NCBI GenBank assembly: GCA_003024175.1
Contig: MDYQ01000464.1
Location: 1-64,000, forward strand
Reading direction: 5' to 3'
From: Planoprotostelium fungivorum
Lineage: Eukaryota; Evosea; Variosea; Cavosteliida; Cavosteliaceae
DNA: 64,000 nt
This document shows positions 4,751 through 59,300 of the stretch, piece after piece. Within the stretch, counting starts at the first letter, position 1; each line of letters begins with the position of its first letter. Under the pieces are notes generated by a model. It searched no databases, was not told the DNA's origin, and was given only the letters and a program-made list of their open reading frames with translations. The position numbers were made by a program, and so were the translations under genes.

Positions 4751-5349
4751 AATCGAGTGTTTCATCGTGTGAATCGATCGGTGGTCGCTCATGCTTGTTC
4801 ATGAGATGTTGGTTTGTGTGTGAAATGTGGGAAGAAAATTGAGGGGGAGATCCACAATTGGACAAAATCATAGTGTCACATCAGCCCTGGACACGGAGGC
4901 CTCAATTATTTATAATAAAGCGAAGTTGAGTGAGGCATTACGAGGGTATTTATTCCCCACATACGGGCGTGAAGTCAGAATTTAAGAGTGGACCGGGTAT
5001 CCACATTATTTCGATTCTTGACCTTCCTTTCACCATATTACTGCCGTGAATAGGCATAGGCTATACGCCGGCGGAAAAATATATTAGATAAATAGACCTT
5101 GTAGATATATATTTTCATTCACCACGAACACCGCTTCACTGAAACATAACATATTTTCTTCGAAAAGTTCATGTCGACTATAGAATGATGCTTCTTCACG
5201 GTTATTATCGAGAAATCATTTCGTTCTATATCGTACCATACAGCTACCATATCGAAAACGACGACATCATACGATTGCACACGATAGAAATCATAGTCGT
5301 TTTTCAATTCTAAGCGAGAGTTCATATATATATATATCTCTGTACATTA
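4751..5349. other. Intergenic region, no gene recognised
   Basis: This 600-bp stretch is AT-rich. It should hold the helicase 3' UTR and the promoter of the surface-protein gene, with a TA run near 5323-5336. The short open frames on either strand have no domain, no splice-consistent neighbours and poor codon bias. The missing first exon and signal peptide of the downstream gene may be here but could not be found. Confidence 0.4.
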
Positions 5350-8300
5350 GGGAAGAAATAACGAGGAACGACAACAGCCTTCTGTGTGGAAACGATCTCA
5401 ACAATGTCACAGTTGTCTTCTCGGTCACTGACGACGTCGTTGTTCAGAACCTCGCGACGGACGCCTCTCGGTCCATCATCTCCGGAGACGGGCAGTGGGT
5501 TGTAGTGGTCAAGAATGAGACCATCAACTTCTACATCCGTCAGGCACGCAGCTGGACTCTCTTTGTAAGTGTTACCCTTAAGCCCATTCTCATCATTGTA
5601 GACTTCTACACCTATACCCTTCAGTCAGAACTCGACTTTCTCTCTCTTCTTTGACACGACCGGCTCTCGCCTCGTATTGGCCACCAGGAAAACGAGATAC
5701 TTCTACTCCAAGTCTTCTACGTCCAAAGACTACACCCTTTGGTCGCAGTTGGTCCCTCAATTCGACATCACATTCATTCCAAAATTCAGTGGAGACCTCA
5801 GCACTGTGTTCGAGAAGAGAGACTCCTTACTGTTCGCGTCGACCGTCGACTGGGTCAACCAGAAGATGGGCGAGTCAGTGCGTTTCACCCTCACGAACGT
5901 GTCTGATCTTTCTACAGACCAATGTCACTGTGTCAGTCAATGATGGATCTATTCTAGCCACCAACTCTGCTGGAACTGCTTTCGTCTACTCGGATCACGA
6001 TGGCAGCCGTCTCTACAGAAAGAGGTGAGGGGTGACGTTGTCCTGTAACGCTCATCACCCACAGTTCTGACGGATGGATCGTAACGTATGTGGGACTCAA
6101 CTTGGACCGTTGGTCTTTCTCTGGCGACAATCAGTTCCTCTTGAGAGGTTCATTTGATGGAGAACTATATAAGTACTTCGTAGGTGATCTCACGAGGAGT
6201 TATCTTCCTCACCAATTGTGAGTGCTCCTCTTATCATCTACCTTCACTCCCCTCATCACATCTCTTCTCTTCCTTCGTCTCAACCGAGACAGCCTCTCGT
6301 CCGAACTTGGAGACGATAACTGGCTCATCCACTCCAACTATGACGGAAGTGGCGTCGTCTACAATGACAGTCCAGCTGGCGAGAATATTAAATCGGTCAC
6401 GCCCTCAACGTTGTGGTTCACCACTCCGTCTCACATGTACGGAGCAGGAGAGATGTGTCTGAACGACACTTGGTGTATAACCAGTCTCACGTGTGGTCCC
6501 GGTCACTACTGCCATCAACTCAATCGTAGGGCACAGCCTGACACGTACGACGTGAATTTCGTAGAACATACATGGAGATCGTCAGGAGGAGGTGAGACAC
6601 ATGTAGCATGCCCGGAAAATATTTTGGTTCCCCTTTTGGGCATAGGAGGTCCCAATGCATTTTACTATGGGCTATGCCCGAAAGTTTAACCGGCTCTACA
6701 AAGCCAACAGAAGGACACATCACACAGCCAACAGCAGCCCCGTCTCGTTTAACTCTATTGTGATATATCTCTTGCAGCAGAACATCGATCTGGTTGAGGT
6801 GAGTGATTTCGCATGGTCAATCACATGATCTGATTTCCAGCGTTATGATGATAACATTTTCTTCAGCAGATTGCTTCATACACAAAATTAATGGCTTGCG
6901 CTCGATCGAGTGGAATTGAATAACAAGGTGAGACTCAATATGATGATTGATAACAAGACATGGAGTCAACACACATAATAATCAGCGCCTATTCACGGGG
7001 ATGATTGTTTTGTTACGCTCTTCTCAGATGTAATCATTGGGCGATCCCATCACAACAAAAGAATAAAACACTTGTGATATACTTTTATTCTTATTCCCGC
7101 CACACCAACGGCTAAGTGAGGTTTGACAGTAGATAATTGAATCAACAGCCGTCATCTCAAGCTAAATCAGTTGCCGTCATGGACGATGATATCCTCACTC
7201 AGTTCATTCATGCAAAGAAGAACCCAGGACAGTCCCCTATCCTCTTCTCTGAGGATAGACAACAGATCATCAAGCAGCTTCGTTCCTACAGGCTGAAACC
7301 TATTGAAGCAGCTGAGTCTGCAGTTCTTGGACCCAACCGTGAAATTCTCCAAAGGAGAGTTCTTGTAAGACTGACACCCTAATGTTACCATCACTGACGC
7401 ATTACGCAGGTGAAGCAGAAGCACAAGATGGGGTACAAGAACCCAAATTCAAAGAAGAAACTTGATAATGGCTTCGATGTATTGTGGCTTGATGTGGTGC
7501 CGAAGTCCAAGGTGGCCTCTGTTGTCAGGTGGCTCCATCTAGAGTGTGGTCACGCTGGAATCAATAAGATCGTCAAGAGAGCACAGGCCGAGAAATTGTG
7601 GTGGCCGAGTGAGTCATACAAACACCTCATCTTGCATAACTCTTGTCTAACTTTGAGCAGAGTCAAAGGAAGACCTTGCTCAGGCATCCGTTGAATGTGC
7701 CAACTGCGCTGCAACCAGAGTCGATCATCGATACCGACCTCCGATGAAGACCATCAAGATCACACATCGGCGAGAGCGCCTTGTTTTTGACGTTACTTAT
7801 CTGCAGGCGAGTGACCAAACCGCTTGGATCTGACCGATCTGACAGGAGTCAAAACGCAGGGAACAAATATCTTGTCACTGGAGTGGACGCCTTTACAAAA
7901 AAGGCATGGGCTTACGCTACAGCACTGAAGGATGCAGACGCTGTTATCGCATTCTTAGAAAGCCTTGGTGATGAGAGCTGGGCCATCTATCACACCGACA
8001 ATGGGAAGGAGTTCATCAACAAGAAGGTGGAGGAGTACGTCAAATCTCGGACAGCTGTTGTTGTGCACACAGACGGCACGATCGAGGAGATTGCAGCCAA
8101 GCAGGTGCAAGGTCGTCCATATCACCCACAGAGTCAGGGCCACGTAGAGAAGTTCAACGGCACAATCAAAGATCTCATCAAGTGAGATCGGATCGCAGCC
8201 GTCAGATTCTGATCTATTTTAGGAAGCTCTGTCTTGACAGGGGCACGAAGGACTGGGAGGAGGTTCTGGAAGAAGCTCTTCGGATATACAACTCAAACTA

Positions 8301-10504
8301 TCATGCCACCACCAACTACTCGCCAGAGGAGCTCGATAGCATGATCCCTATGCCTGAGGAAGTCAGACTATTTGTGGCTGACCGCATCGAGAGGAAGGGA
8401 CGGAAGAACGCGGTGAACAAGAACAAGAATTTTGCGCCTGTTGTCATTAAGAGGTGAACTATGGCAACATTCAAGATCTAGAAGTGACACTTTGATAGAG
8501 GAGATCGGTTGGTGTATCGAGAGCCTTATCGCAAGAAGAAGCATGACTCTACTTCCCCTCCTCGATATGCATACAGTGGGATTGTTGTCGATGTAGTTGA
8601 GGAGAACGTGCCAAATAGCACCCAGAAGACCACCATGATGGTCAAGCTTTGCTGGGAAACTAACGGACCCAACGGCCAGCCAAAAGGAACCAACTCTTCT
8701 TGGATCAATGTGGTGTTCGTCAAGCATGCACCAAGTGCAAACGAAGGCGTCAGTGAGACAATTGGAACCCTCTTTGCACCACCTGCGGTCCCTATCCCAC
8801 AGCAGCAGCCTCTCCTTTGCCCAGATATCTCCATTGGAATCGTGCCTCCCTCTCAACCACTCACACCTCGTTCTGGCCGAAATCTTGTCCTGTCATGTCT
8901 TGAGCCTATAGGAGAACGCGTATCGCGCCTTCAGACTCGAGTGAACGGAATCACTGAAAGGTGAGCTGCTCAACGACAGGATGTCAATTGACACCTCCCA
9001 GGCTTGACTCCATTGATGCAACCCACCACAGTTCCAATGAGCACGCTCAACTCGAATCGCAGAACGAGACTGAAGAGGAGACGATGGAAGGTGAAGATAT
9101 ATTTATTCAGTATCATCAATTTGACAATCATCATCCAGATCTCCACTGGCATCCCTCTTCACCTTGTTCACTGGTTTATTCCACGCCTCCTTCTCCAATT
9201 CATGAATCAGCCCCTGACAGTGAGTGAAATCTGTCAGGATAATCGAGCTCATTCTGATCAGATTCTGTTGAAATCAGAGGAGAGAGCGTTGTTGATGACG
9301 ACGCTCTCTCCAATGACGTTGTCTCACCTGTTAGAGAAGTCTCCTCTCCATCTATTATTGAAGAGATACCATCTGAGGGGAGAAAGAGACCTCGACAGAA
9401 TGTAGAGGAGGAGTTGCCTGCAAGAAAGGTGAGATCTCGGTCCAATCCATATCAACTCACCCATATGTAGGTCTCAAAGAGGACAGTGTCCGTGAAGAAG
9501 GCAGCTCCAGTTAACAAGGTTGGGGAGATTACAACAGCTGCGACGCCTCTTCGCCCATCCACCATACCCACCCGAACATCCTCTAGAGGGAGGTCCATCG
9601 TATCTCCTTCCAAATCTCCCTCTCCTGCCAAGTCCCGCCCATTGAAACACTGGTCTACCCTCTCGCGCGGAGGAACCGAATGAGATATGATATGTGGCGA
9701 TCGCATCACAAACAATAAATTGCATTTTCCATACACGTGTTTATTCTAGTCATAACGTAGTGTAAACACCTGATTCGCAACTAGGGTGGCCATTGATCTA
9801 TGCGCTGTGTCGCTTCATGTGAACGATCATATCGTCCATCAACATCATCGTTGACGATGCAATCATTTGTGACCTATGACTCTGGAGTCCAATTACAAGA
9901 GTGATTTTTGTTCGGGGTAGCTGTTGGCTGTGTGATGTGTCCTTCTGTTGGCTTTGTAGAGCCGGTTAAACTTTCGGGCATAGCCCATAGTAAAATGCAT
10001 TGGGACCTCCTATGCCCAAAAGGGGAACCAAAATATTTTCCGGGCATGCTACACACATCGATCATCTCTCGATGACAAAGTGCAGTACAGCTCTATCTTC
10101 AGAGTGAATCTCCATTCACGTGTAACGCCGCCGGATCAAACCCCATCGGCACTGAGACAAGTACAGTAGACGTGTACAACAACACGAGAGTGCAAGTGGC
10201 TTACTACAACTCTGCCGGCCTATCTCGTCTCGTCGACGCAGGTTATCTTCCGTCAGGATATGTTCACGTGCAGCCGTTAGACACAGAGAACAGGATGGTT
10301 GAGTTCTGGCTGAGCTGTGTGTGTGTCGATGACTACGCATCATCCGCTTCTCCCACAAAATTGACCTTGGAGCTACCTGCGGCCACGTCGAGCAGCGCGA
10401 GTGACATCTATACTGCACCGCCCACTCAATCTCGACCCAGCACAGCTGCCGTGATGAGCGTCGGAACACTGGTCATCGTCTGTCTGGTCTTGATGACGAT
10501 GTAA
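5350..10504 (+). CDS. Novel cell-surface or secreted protein, interrupted by an intronic transposon
   Basis: Exons joined at 35-45-nt introns encode a Ser/Thr/Asn-rich, beta-strand-like protein with many N-glycosylation sequons. It has a Cys-containing segment near 6451-6520 (CLNDTWCITSLTCGPGHYC) and a hydrophobic C-terminus (VGTLVIVCLVLMTM), which could be a membrane anchor or GPI signal. The last intron opens GTGAGACACA at 6592 and closes TGCAG at 10085. It would be only about 38 nt without the transposon at 6602-10053, and the exons on both sides join in frame (phase 1). Stop is at 10502-10504. The true start and signal peptide were not located; 5350 is the first base of a supported open exon. 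No family was recognised. It is probably a membrane or extracellular protein. Confidence 0.6.
6602..6735 (+). repeat. Left terminal inverted repeat of the transposon
   Basis: The 134 bp are an exact reverse complement of 9920-10053. The repeat contains several copies of an ATGCCC/GGGCAT motif, including an internal pair (GGGCATAG near 6630 and CTATGCCC near 6675) that could form a hairpin or paired transposase sites. Confidence 0.95.
7179..9683 (+). CDS. Ginger-like transposase (rve integrase core)
   Basis: Eight or so exons joined at 42-50-nt introns give one open frame from ATG 7179 to TGA at 9681-9683. The N-terminal part has an H-x4-H...C-x2-C zinc-binding motif (HLECGH, then CANC). The integrase core follows: first Asp in RLVFDVTYL, second Asp in YHTDNGKEF, and Glu in HPQSQGHVEKFNG, the DDE set of retroviral-type integrases. 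After the core comes a GDRLVYRE segment like the SH3-type C-terminal part of Gypsy/Ginger integrases, then a Ser/Pro-rich basic tail. The introns resemble host introns. The enzyme should cut and join the element ends. It looks intact by eye. An in-frame TTG upstream at 7137 was not taken as the start. Confidence 0.8.
9714..9719 (+). terminator. Polyadenylation signal of the transposase gene
   Basis: AATAAA lies 31 bp after the transposase stop codon and upstream of the right inverted repeat. Confidence 0.5.
9920..10053 (-). repeat. Right terminal inverted repeat of the transposon
   Basis: Exact inverted copy of 6602-6735, ending in CTACA next to the target duplication CACA at 10054-10057. 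Just inside, the two sides diverge after CCAACAGC. Confidence 0.95.
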
Positions 10505-10523
10505 GAGTGAAGGATGTGAACGA

Positions 10524-10529
10524 AATAAA
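10524..10529 (+). terminator. Polyadenylation signal of the surface-protein gene
   Basis: AATAAA 20 bp after the stop codon at 10502-10504. Confidence 0.5.
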
Positions 10530-11053
10530 AAGTTCCATCACGGTGGGCTCTGTTATACTGTGTTGTTTTTGATGGCAATCACATCCGGGTGAAAATACCG
10601 AGCTATACATTTCATCTCTCTAGTGTAATACTGATTTCTTTGTCGTGTCCGTTTTCAGCCGGGCATCGGCGATCTGAAAACTCTAGACTCTACGCGATGC
10701 TGCCTGCCAACTCTCGCCTGCCAAACATCAACTATTGGTGGCTTCAGCAGAGGATACTGCCGGTGTACAATCAAGAGATCGTCCGCTGGCGGTGAAGCAC
10801 CATCAGAGGGCCCACAAGCGACGAAAAGTGTCTACCCAATAGTTGTGACCAGTGTCCAGCGGATATTAGGCCTACATCGAGTTTAGTATGCAGTAAATGC
10901 TACGTTGAGTGATCGCAGGTACGGGTGTCTATCTACATGGTGAGGCAAAGATGCAACCCGAACACAAAGAAATGCCTGTATTATTACTTGTGACTTAAAC
11001 GGAGGTGATTATACATCATATTCAGATACTCAATCAAATTTCACCGCTTCTAT
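10530..11053. other. Intergenic region, no gene recognised
   Basis: No supported coding exon, tRNA or repeat was found. An open frame at 10589-10795 begins with GTG and shows no domain, so it is not called. Confidence 0.4.
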
Positions 11054-30841: not shown

Positions 30842-30960
30842 AGCTACGATCATACCTGATTGAAAACCCACGAACCCATTCCGAACTCGTAAGGTAAGCA
30901 ATCGTGGGCGATGCTAATACTGTGATGGGAGACCGCACGGGAATCCATCGTGTCGTAGCT
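30842..30960 (+). rRNA. 5S ribosomal RNA
   Basis: The 119-nt sequence has the universal 5S features: 5' AGCTACGATCATACC paired with 3' TCGTAGCT (helix I), CCGAACTCGTAAGGTAAGCA in the loop-B/C region, and GATGGGAGACCGCACGGGAA, which covers the internal box C promoter region. A T4 run at 30960-30963 is the likely RNA polymerase III terminator. It is a lone copy between protein-coding genes; no second copy lies in this window. Confidence 0.93.
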
Positions 30961-31067
30961 TTTGCCTCTCGCCGCTCAATCGATGTGAAGGCTAGTATCA
31001 TCTTGACGAATTTTGGACACGTTCACGATCAACGTCATCGACAATGTCTGTCTATGACGAATGATAA

Positions 31068-56308: not shown

Positions 56309-59300
56309 CTATTTCTTCCCTTGTGTTCTTTTCAATTCGACGAGAAATCTCTTCAGCACTTCTTTGCCTTTGTATAAATTCTCCAATCGAATCCTCTCGT
56401 TCTCTAAATGAGCTCGATCTGATCCCTGCCCGATCGGCAGATGCAAAGCGGGGGCCACTGTCCTCGTGTCAATCATGTTGCATCATGTGATCTCGGTCGC
56501 ATCGAACTCGACTCACTCAACGTCTTCTCTAGAAACGGCGTCACTGGGATCGTTCCACCTTCGCGAACGAACATGGGTGCGATTCCCCACTCTTGTTGAA
56601 GACATTTCGCGGCCATCTGATAATATCGATTGCTCCTGTCTCCCAACCACATGTCTCCCGTGTGCAATGCTTCGATCTGTTTCGCTGTGAGCTTGATTCT
56701 GCATCTTCTCTTCTCACTTCGACTTGGTTGCATGAGTTGAGAGCCGCGAACTTGTCTTGGATGTATTCAGTCGTCAGTCGGATGATGTTACAGATGGACT
56801 GTGAAGGGACCAGACGGAGACAAATGCGTCCGGTTACCTGCGTGAAGGGTGAGATGAGAGATGATGAAAAGACTTGGTTGTACCCTGTTCGAGATTACAG
56901 ATGAGCCACCTCCACTGGAGCGGATGTGAACCACAGAGAGACTCGGGCTACACCATCTGATGATGCACATCAGATTAGATGATGAAGATGACCGATGACG
57001 TGATGGTGTCTTCACGATGCGATGATCAGCTTACCTCTTGCGGCAGAGATCTGAAACATTATCGGCCTTGAGATCTCTGACCCCCTTCGACGTCTTGTAC
57101 GCGTTCATGTCGAAGTCCAGCTGGGAGAACAACTTTTCCTCCTCCGTATCGATCTGCAGGACATCATCCATGAAACCTGAAGAATTCAACTTCTGTACGT
57201 CCCTCCTATCTTCTACTCACTCGGTATCTTTATGTTTCCGTGTCCATCTACTAATTGAGACAACAGATGTCTGTACGGTGTGAACGTCTTCCATGTCTAT
57301 ATCTCATGACTCACGTCAGCTCATGAAACGGCTCGTGAAAGGCACCACCATCGATTCCGGTGTGTAAATCTCGATTGGGACCGGAGATACTGATCTCCAT
57401 GTCTATGACACCACGCATTCCGTAGATGAGACAGGGTCGGCTGTCACCTAACCACAAGGTGTTCATGATGAGGACGACGCTCGTTCCTTCGAAGAGTTGC
57501 AAATTGTCCAGAACACTCTCCTTCATCGGTCATCAGTCTACATGATCAATGATGATCACGATCAGTTCGGGATGTGATGATCGTGACGAGATGATCGCGA
57601 TCGTGATCGCGTGATGATCATCGTGACGATCGAGATGATGCTCACTCGAAATCCCTCCGAATCCGCCTCCTCTTCTCCCTCATACAGAAAGATAACATTC
57701 ACGTTCAATAGATCCTCCATCTGCAACTCCTTCACCGCCGCGACCGTCGCCACGATCGGTCCCTTGTCATCTGTGACACCCCTCCCGTAGTAATATCCAT
57801 CTCTCCTGATCCATCATCAAATCTCACACGTTCAAGACGAATCATCATAAATCATCTCAACTTACCCGGTCAAAACGAAAGGATCCGTATCCCAGCCTTC
57901 CTTCTGGTTCGCGGGGACGACGTCGTAGTGTCCATAGATCGTAACCGTTGGATTGTCTGGGTTACTACCCAATCGACCGATGACGATGGGATTCTTACTT
58001 TCCTTGTCCTTCGCTGTGGATGGTTTCAACGGTGGAAGACGATCGTGTGACCACCTTGTACGAGCTTGACTTCTGCACCGATGTTCTGTAGGATGGAGTA
58101 GAGATATTTTGCTCCTTTCCAGCATTCTGACTTCAAATTGGGATCCGTGCTCACTGTTCTCCCTCAGACAAATATTCTGAAATTTCAGTCACTTCACCTG
58201 TCCGCATGGATATGAATGTCGACAAAACGTCCAACATATTTCCTGGACATTTNACCGATGTTCTGTAGGATGGAGTAGAGATATTTTGCTCCTTTCCAGC
58301 ATTCTGACTTTAAATTGGGATCCGTGCTCACTGTTCTCCCTCAGACGAAAATCCTCTGAAATTTCAGTCACTTCACCTGTCCGCATGGATATGAATGTCG
58401 ACAAAACGTCCAACATATTTCCTGGACATTTCGTGAGTCGATGTACAGTTGATGAGAGACTCACTCTGGCTCTGTATCTTGACTTCTTGTGCTGGCTCGC
58501 TGTGAATCTGTTGACCATCGTTGACTCTCCCGTTGCTCTTTGGTTGTGAATCATTCCAAAACTATTCCGAATTATTTCTCAGAAATATCTGGGAAATATG
58601 TTCACCTTGACGTGGGCACCTGATGAGAAGATGTATCCGTTGGTGTCTGCGTTGTAGATCATCGAATGACTGCTCTCTTCTTTCAACGCTCCCCTACAGA
58701 TCCAATTATCTCGATTCCATATCTGTACGCATTTAGATCTATGTATAGACATCACGGTAGACATATCACGTGACCCACCTTGATAGATCTCTCACTGGAT
58801 GTGATGAGAGAATCAGGAGACAGACACATCGACAACAGATGTGAATCGTGAGCTTTCAAAGTCCTCGTGCAATTCATCGTGTCGACGTCCCACACCTTCT
58901 TCACCGTCAGACGTGTAAATTTTCCCGCCAAAATTCTCGCCTTGACTGTACCGTTTGTATCGGCAGAGTAGAGAAAAGGAGAAGAAGGAGAAGAAGTGAT
59001 GCAAGTGATTCCAGCTTGATGACCATTCAAACTATGTGTGCAGATTTCCCTCGAGATATCGTGAGCTCGTATGGTGCGATCGCCGCTGCCGCTGAATAAG
59101 ATATCTTCTCCACGGCTGTTCTTGTGGACTAAGAGACTGAAAACGTAACCTCTGTGACCTTGTAGATGTGAGGATCTACAACCAGCCACAGATTCTCACC
59201 CGGTATCACTTTCACCTGAACATCGAATTAGCGACAATTACACGCGATCGATACGAAAATCAAAAAAAGGTTGGAATCACACCTTCTCTCGATCACCAAA

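Follow-up and report, generated by a model that had tools for sequence, protein, structure and literature searches.

A Ginger-like DNA transposon within a 38-nt intron of a paralogous gene family in the amoeba Planoprotostelium fungivorum

The window analysed here is a 64,000-nt stretch of the genome of the variosean amoeba Planoprotostelium fungivorum (contig MDYQ01000464.1 of GenBank assembly GCA_003024175.1, positions 1 to 64,000 of the forward strand), to which all positions refer unless another contig is named. It harbours one copy of a gene that forms a small family in P. fungivorum; the last intron of this copy contains a 3,452-bp element with long terminal inverted repeats (TIRs), an integrase gene of its own and a 4-bp target site duplication (TSD). 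The features of the locus are listed in Table 1. Its structure marks the element as a cut-and-paste DNA transposon that is complete, was inserted recently and appears structurally autonomous, and we argue below that it is Ginger-like and probably disrupts the transcripts of the gene in which it resides.

Table 1. Features of the host gene copy and of the inserted element (positions in the window; UTR, untranslated region)
Feature	Position	Strand	Basis
Host gene copy, exons upstream of the insertion, open frame; no start codon or signal peptide recognised	5349..6591	+	Paralogue comparison
Host intron, donor side (GTGAGACACA)	6592..6601	+	Intron common to C362; C134 and C326 have an intron here; C172 has a shifted donor
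TSD CACA, left copy	6598..6601	.	Single CACA in C362
Ginger-like DNA transposon, whole, 3,452 bp	6602..10053	+	Inverted ends, TSD, empty site in paralogue C362
Left TIR, 141 nt (134 perfect), starts TGTAG	6602..6742	.	Repeat comparison
Candidate 42-nt intron in the 5′ UTR of the element (GTGAGT...CAG)	6799..6840	+	Sequence only
Second candidate 5′-UTR intron of the element	6928-6985		Sequence only
Predicted integrase/transposase gene for 715 aa with H2C2 finger and D172-D225-E275, in 9 exons with 8 introns (41-52 nt)	7179..9683	+	Frame model, Pfam, alignment
AATAAA that may serve the element as poly(A) signal, 31 nt past the integrase stop	9714..9719	+	Motif; another at 7062
Right TIR, terminates in CTACA	9913..10053	.	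Repeat comparison
TSD CACA, right copy	10054..10057	.	Single CACA in C362
Duplicated CACA (10054-10057) and host intron acceptor side (28 nt, TGCAG end)	10054..10085	+	Element removal, paralogue introns
Host last exon, C-terminal 139 aa, hydrophobic tail	10086..10504	+	Frame, paralogues

The two ends of the element are 99% identical over 141 nt, the sole mismatches being at positions 135 and 136; the left TIR contains one GGGCAT and two ATGCCC. The element begins with TGTAGCATGC and ends with GCATGCTACA, CACA flanking it on each side, and the excision of the element together with one CACA restores GTGAGACACATCGATCATCTCTCGATGACAAAGTGCAG, 38 nt in length. An initial annotation of the locus had described perfect 134-bp inverted repeats, TGTAG/CTACA ends and a CACA duplication, all of which we recovered (6598-6601 and 10054-10057 for the duplication). 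It had given 6592..10085 as the transposon: this interval is the enlarged host intron (3,494 nt), while the element proper is confined to 6602-10053. We call the insertion recent because the first 134 positions of both ends match perfectly and the TSD is intact.

An empty version of the insertion site occurs in the same genome. Both flanks of the element match one continuous stretch in the paralogue C362 (84% over 773 aligned positions), where C362:148276-148313 is the equivalent 38-nt intron, with a single CACA and without any element, identical to the window at 36 of 38 bases. The 141-nt inverted repeat and this exact empty site are beyond chance and, with the perfect ends and the intact TSD, bear out the complete, recent insertion that had been proposed. 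No allelic empty copy was found in the genome, in which, besides the window, there are only diverged matches (at most 90% identical over more than 100 bases) and one 74-base match at 96%.

The deposited models of paralogues C172, C326 and C134 feature an intron at the equivalent place (54, 39 and 38 nt, respectively), the model donor in C172 lying further upstream than the aligned donor. Since C362, C172, C326 and C134 share the intron, it predates the element and its phase is right. Freed of the element, the host intron (GTGAG...TGCAG) is in phase one and the spliced frame remains open to the stop ending at 10504; the tiny, phase-keeping intron of the initial annotation is thereby corroborated. 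The exon bases adjoining the intron are identical between the window and C362 at only 45/60 and 41/60 positions, yet the intron is at 36/38. Introns account for 230 of the 1,700 bp of the host gene (13.5%), so that a single landing in an intron is unremarkable and targeting is not required. The tetranucleotides beside ten ends of the family (see below) share no visible target, and we have rejected intron targeting as an explanation: as far as can be seen, the landing in the last intron occurred by chance.

Removal of eight GT-AG introns, predicted with a sequence model, yields an open frame of 715 codons plus a stop in the integrase gene, which has the same sense as the host gene; the open DDE integrase gene and the host-like introns in host sense, both noticed initially, were thus found again. 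The predicted protein scores above the curated cut-offs of the Pfam families rve (6.5e-9) and Integrase_H2C2 (4.6e-7), with HLECGH...CANC as the finger pattern and D172, D225 and E275 as catalytic residues, while OTU, Ulp1, PHD and reverse transcriptase (RT) are not among the five Pfam families reported at E up to 1. The motifs GP[YF] and [YF]P have zero occurrences across the 715 aa. The nearest solved relative by sequence is the PFV integrase in the PDB (phmmer 4.1e-14, first 442 residues). Compared with five aligned relatives, the integrase has 14 extra residues separating the second D from the E (window about 8040-8110).

The features of the Ginger superfamily are present: an H2C2 finger with a DDE core, TGTNR ends, long inverted ends and, in one copy, a 4-bp TSD. 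Ginger1 elements, described from four animal species, measure 2.6-7 kb, terminate in TGTNR and have inverted ends some 40-270 bp long, 0-4 introns and 4-bp CCGG/CCGT TSDs; their proteins contain GPY/F and YPYY and, in all but one case, OTU or Ulp1 (PMC2836005). Our element resembles them in size, in the TGTNR and long inverted ends, in the 4-bp TSD, in the H2C2 finger with a Gypsy-like DDE core and in having introns, but its TSD is CACA, not CCGG or CCGT/ACGG, its protein is without GP[YF] and [YF]P and without any OTU, Ulp1 or PHD that we could find, and it carries eight introns in an amoebozoan host.

Ginger2/Tdd elements have RTATAY targets and lack GPY/F and YPYY; their inverted ends are 45-180 bp long in animals, 260 bp in TDD-4 and 297 bp in TDD-5 of Dictyostelium, and the latter two generate 5-bp TSDs (PMC2836005). 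They share with our element the TGTNR ends, the long inverted ends, the H2C2 finger and DDE domain, the lack of GPY/F or YPYY and an occurrence in Amoebozoa, but, in a comparison made by published description, the CACA target differs from RTATAY and the 4-bp TSD from the 5-bp TSDs of TDD-4 and TDD-5. We propose to call the element Ginger-like, of the integrase type, with the features of neither subgroup present in full. The original assignment to Ginger is loosely supported, at the level of the superfamily but no further, as the targets of Ginger1 and Ginger2 and the motifs and extra domains of Ginger1 were not found.

A protein search identified six proteins at E up to 1e-3, and a three-sequence profile search 18 proteins at 1e-6 (7,992 candidates scored). 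The relatives include a second P. fungivorum integrase (34%), a fragment in C22, two OTU-fused proteins, Gypsy proteins and a few domain-free integrases. In a tree of 16 rows (the window integrase and 15 of the 18 profile matches, no annotated Ginger reference being among them), the window integrase and its P. fungivorum relative P0001 are separate from the other 14 rows (100/99), an 11-row set (85/82) groups the RT-bearing rows with P0006, P0009, P0014 and P0016, and the OTU proteins and P0005 fall outside that set; four of the 13 inner branches are starred and seven are open, and seven end branches are long. Gypsy long terminal repeat (LTR) retrotransposons have a homologous integrase core (21-29% identity), but the repeats of our element are inverted instead of direct, RT is missing from the Pfam scan of its integrase, and the RT-bearing rows occupy a different part of the tree. 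The genome has 43 rve matches in all. Among 101 pattern matches in viral contigs no relative was confirmed, and the 78 in genome contigs include two weak prokaryotic ones (26% and 37%).

Using an 18-base pattern, we located ten family ends at 0-1 mismatches, of 14 matches at up to three (the reversed control gave nine): two in the window, two in C421 and single ends in C22, C68, C90, C14, C334 and C342. The copy in C421 (C421:143447-145534; L037 548-2635) is 2,088 bp long, with 123-nt inverted ends that differ by one mismatch, no TSD and no open stretch of more than 95 residues; it is perhaps non-autonomous or recombinant. Five of the six single ends retain only 39-105 bp at 92-99% identity, and C22 retains 810 bp at 95%; their partner ends were not found in the fetched stretches. 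Further related stretches in the genome are 68-91% identical. In a comparison of five related stretches, C303, C20 and C89 had no inverted ends of at least 20 nt, and those of C315 and C18 did not exceed 37 nt. The search for other copies that had been suggested at the outset thus turned up relatives, ten ends and one other two-ended copy, but no second complete one. The tetranucleotides adjoining the ten ends are CACA/TGTG, GAAG, AGAT, AGAC, ACAG, ACTG, TGCC, GAGT and CGAG; CCGG, CCGT, ACGG or TATA adjoin none of the ten, and only the window copy has a TSD at both ends.

The host family includes three deposited full-length members which, read by eye, have a hydrophobic, signal-peptide-like start and a hydrophobic tail; no Pfam family scored above its cut-off in a scan of the host family, whose members are predicted to be secreted proteins with a hydrophobic tail. 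Splicing out the element would give the window copy an open frame of about 490 codons (5349 to 10504). Its clear homology to the three paralogues ends near 5371, and a search of the window with the first 34 residues of the paralogues gave nothing below E 0.34. Where the three paralogues have their start codon and signal-like peptide, the window (5295-5371) contains unrelated sequence that includes a TATATATATA run. In C362, the closest paralogue, the match begins no earlier than window position 6330, and this copy is frameshifted.

We scored splice sites with a model made from 27 introns (four from the host copy, eight from the element and 15 from three paralogues), all of which are 37-75 nt long, compared with 3,494 nt for the enlarged intron. 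The native acceptor has a score of 5.5 (6/27 training acceptors are lower). Of 253 further AGs lying 28 nt or more past the donor, 15 surpass it, the earliest of these being at 7027, 436 nt downstream of the donor; only two AGs fall within 37-75 nt of the donor, and their scores are -3.5 (at 54 nt) and -5.1 (at 57 nt). AATAAA occurs twice on the sense strand of the element, at 7062 and 9714. If the donor is not used, the host frame enters the left end and stops at 6689, with the loss of the last 139 residues. On these predictions, mis-splicing or retention is likelier than clean removal. It had been suggested initially that the insertion is spliced out and the host protein spared; this we consider doubtful because of the intron size (3,494 nt versus 37-75 nt), the stronger competing AGs inside the element, the two AATAAA motifs and the missing start codon and signal peptide. 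The best full explanation, which we hold to be rather probable, would be a transposon of the Ginger kind in an intron of the paralogue family that disrupts the transcripts of its host gene.

A number of observations weigh against this explanation. The host donor is intact with a score of 9.8 (only six of the 27 training donors are higher), the 28 nt of the acceptor side are intact, and the frame is open across the splice; moreover, eight of the 27 training introns belong to the element, which favours the acceptors of the element. The ratio of nonsynonymous to synonymous substitution rates (dN/dS) of the host copy is 0.30-0.33 versus the three paralogues (0.48-0.54 among the paralogues; with dS near 1, the values are rough), because of which the host exons appear to have long been constrained: an unknown first exon may exist, or the 5′ end may have been lost recently. 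That four matches (three paralogues at 55-59% and one partial) include no deposited protein for the spliced window gene speaks for the explanation, but the search was restricted to length-matched proteins clustered at 90%. Finally, just one complete family copy was found, so that movement is deduced and not seen, and the other two-ended copy, in C421, shows no TSD.

The same data bear on whether the host copy was already defective, in which case the insertion would be neutral and its splicing irrelevant. We give this somewhat less than an even chance: the clear paralogue homology that stops near 5371, the failure to find the ATG and signal peptide of the three paralogues, and the frameshift and late-starting match of C362 all point that way, but the open frame of some 490 codons and the dN/dS of 0.30-0.33 speak against it.

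That the entire element leaves as part of one 3,494-nt intron, giving a normal host protein, is unlikely in our judgement. The donor score, the intact acceptor region, the preserved reading frame and the past constraint on the host exons would accord with such removal; it would nonetheless demand an intron far outside the 37-75 nt of all 27 measured ones, use of a weak native acceptor that is outscored by 15 others, and transcription past two sense AATAAA motifs, in a gene for which no start codon and signal peptide were found.

A variant in which the RNA structure assists is more doubtful still. The paired 141-nt ends would loop out the transposon and bring donor and acceptor within about 43 nt along the backbone (10 + 1 + 32), close to the native 38 nt, so that the whole might be read as a short intron. 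In a predicted fold of 3,605 nt, 140 of the 141 left-end positions pair with their right-end mirror, and three controls with a shuffled right end are 190-196 kcal/mol weaker. The donor-acceptor graph distance is 21 compared with 6, 14 and 13 in the three controls; the fold thus does not single out their proximity as special, and we have discarded this distance as evidence since it does not discriminate. The element's own introns may furthermore be processed first, co-transcriptionally. A partial precedent is offered by fungal stwintrons with 45-55-nt TIRs, whose predicted hairpin draws donor and acceptor together and, it is suggested, might assist their excision as a single longer intron, but whose inverted repeats are, by the same account, not necessary for excision (PMC8469720). 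We found no precedent in the literature listings for a whole transposon bridged by its own ends, only the related ideas of IStrons and stwintrons. The native 38-nt intron was also considered for structure; the small hairpin that it can form does not stand out (z 0.69).

An assembly artefact or a piece of an LTR retrotransposon is very improbable: long inverted repeats may be assembled wrongly, the integrase is similar to those of Gypsy elements and many of the 43 rve matches may be retroelements, but the region has no N (the single N of the window is at 58253), the TSD and empty site are exact, direct repeats of at least 20 nt are missing at 6000-10700, the Pfam scan of the protein gave no RT, and further family ends exist on other contigs.

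For a Ginger-kind transposon that disrupts host transcripts, the sequence of events would, by analogy with the family, begin with the transposase binding the inverted ends and excising the element. Its 3′ ends would be joined to target positions separated by 4 bp, after which repair of the gaps would yield the two CACA copies. The 38-nt intron would have turned into one of 3,494 nt, most likely removed poorly by a short-intron spliceosome, and transcripts would be retained, mis-spliced into the element or cut short by the poly(A)-like signals that it carries, which would leave the host protein without its last 139 residues. The insertion would have persisted probably because the host copy is one of several paralogues, maybe one without a working 5′ end.

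The locus adds to the Ginger-like elements an intact one, found in a variosean amoeba, which, by target and accessory motifs, fits neither described subgroup fully. The exact empty site and the 38-nt host intron make it a clean natural case of a short-intron spliceosome confronted with a kilobase transposon, and one that bears on whether long inverted ends aid splicing. Simple mis-splicing would amount to ordinary transposon mutagenesis of a redundant gene. If the paired ends did bridge the intron, a long-ended transposon could be harmless in the tiny introns of a genome that perhaps does not otherwise splice kilobase introns, and long inverted ends could be selected partly through host tolerance.

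Other systems link mobile or inverted-repeat sequences with introns. Introners are DNA-transposon-like units and become intron sequence, and TIRs and 4-bp TSDs are present in some of them (PMC9860276); our element likewise ends up as intron sequence, but introners give rise to introns where none existed, the splice sites being supplied by the introner or by the insertion site, whereas here an older intron has kept its own. In stwintrons, too, inverted repeats may fold the intron, but these are short introns without a TSD (PMC8469720). IStrons are mobile elements rendered harmless through splicing; in contrast to what is considered here, they occur in bacteria and self-splice by means of a group I ribozyme (PMC4227781). 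Elsewhere in the window, a 5S rRNA gene is located at 30842-30961.

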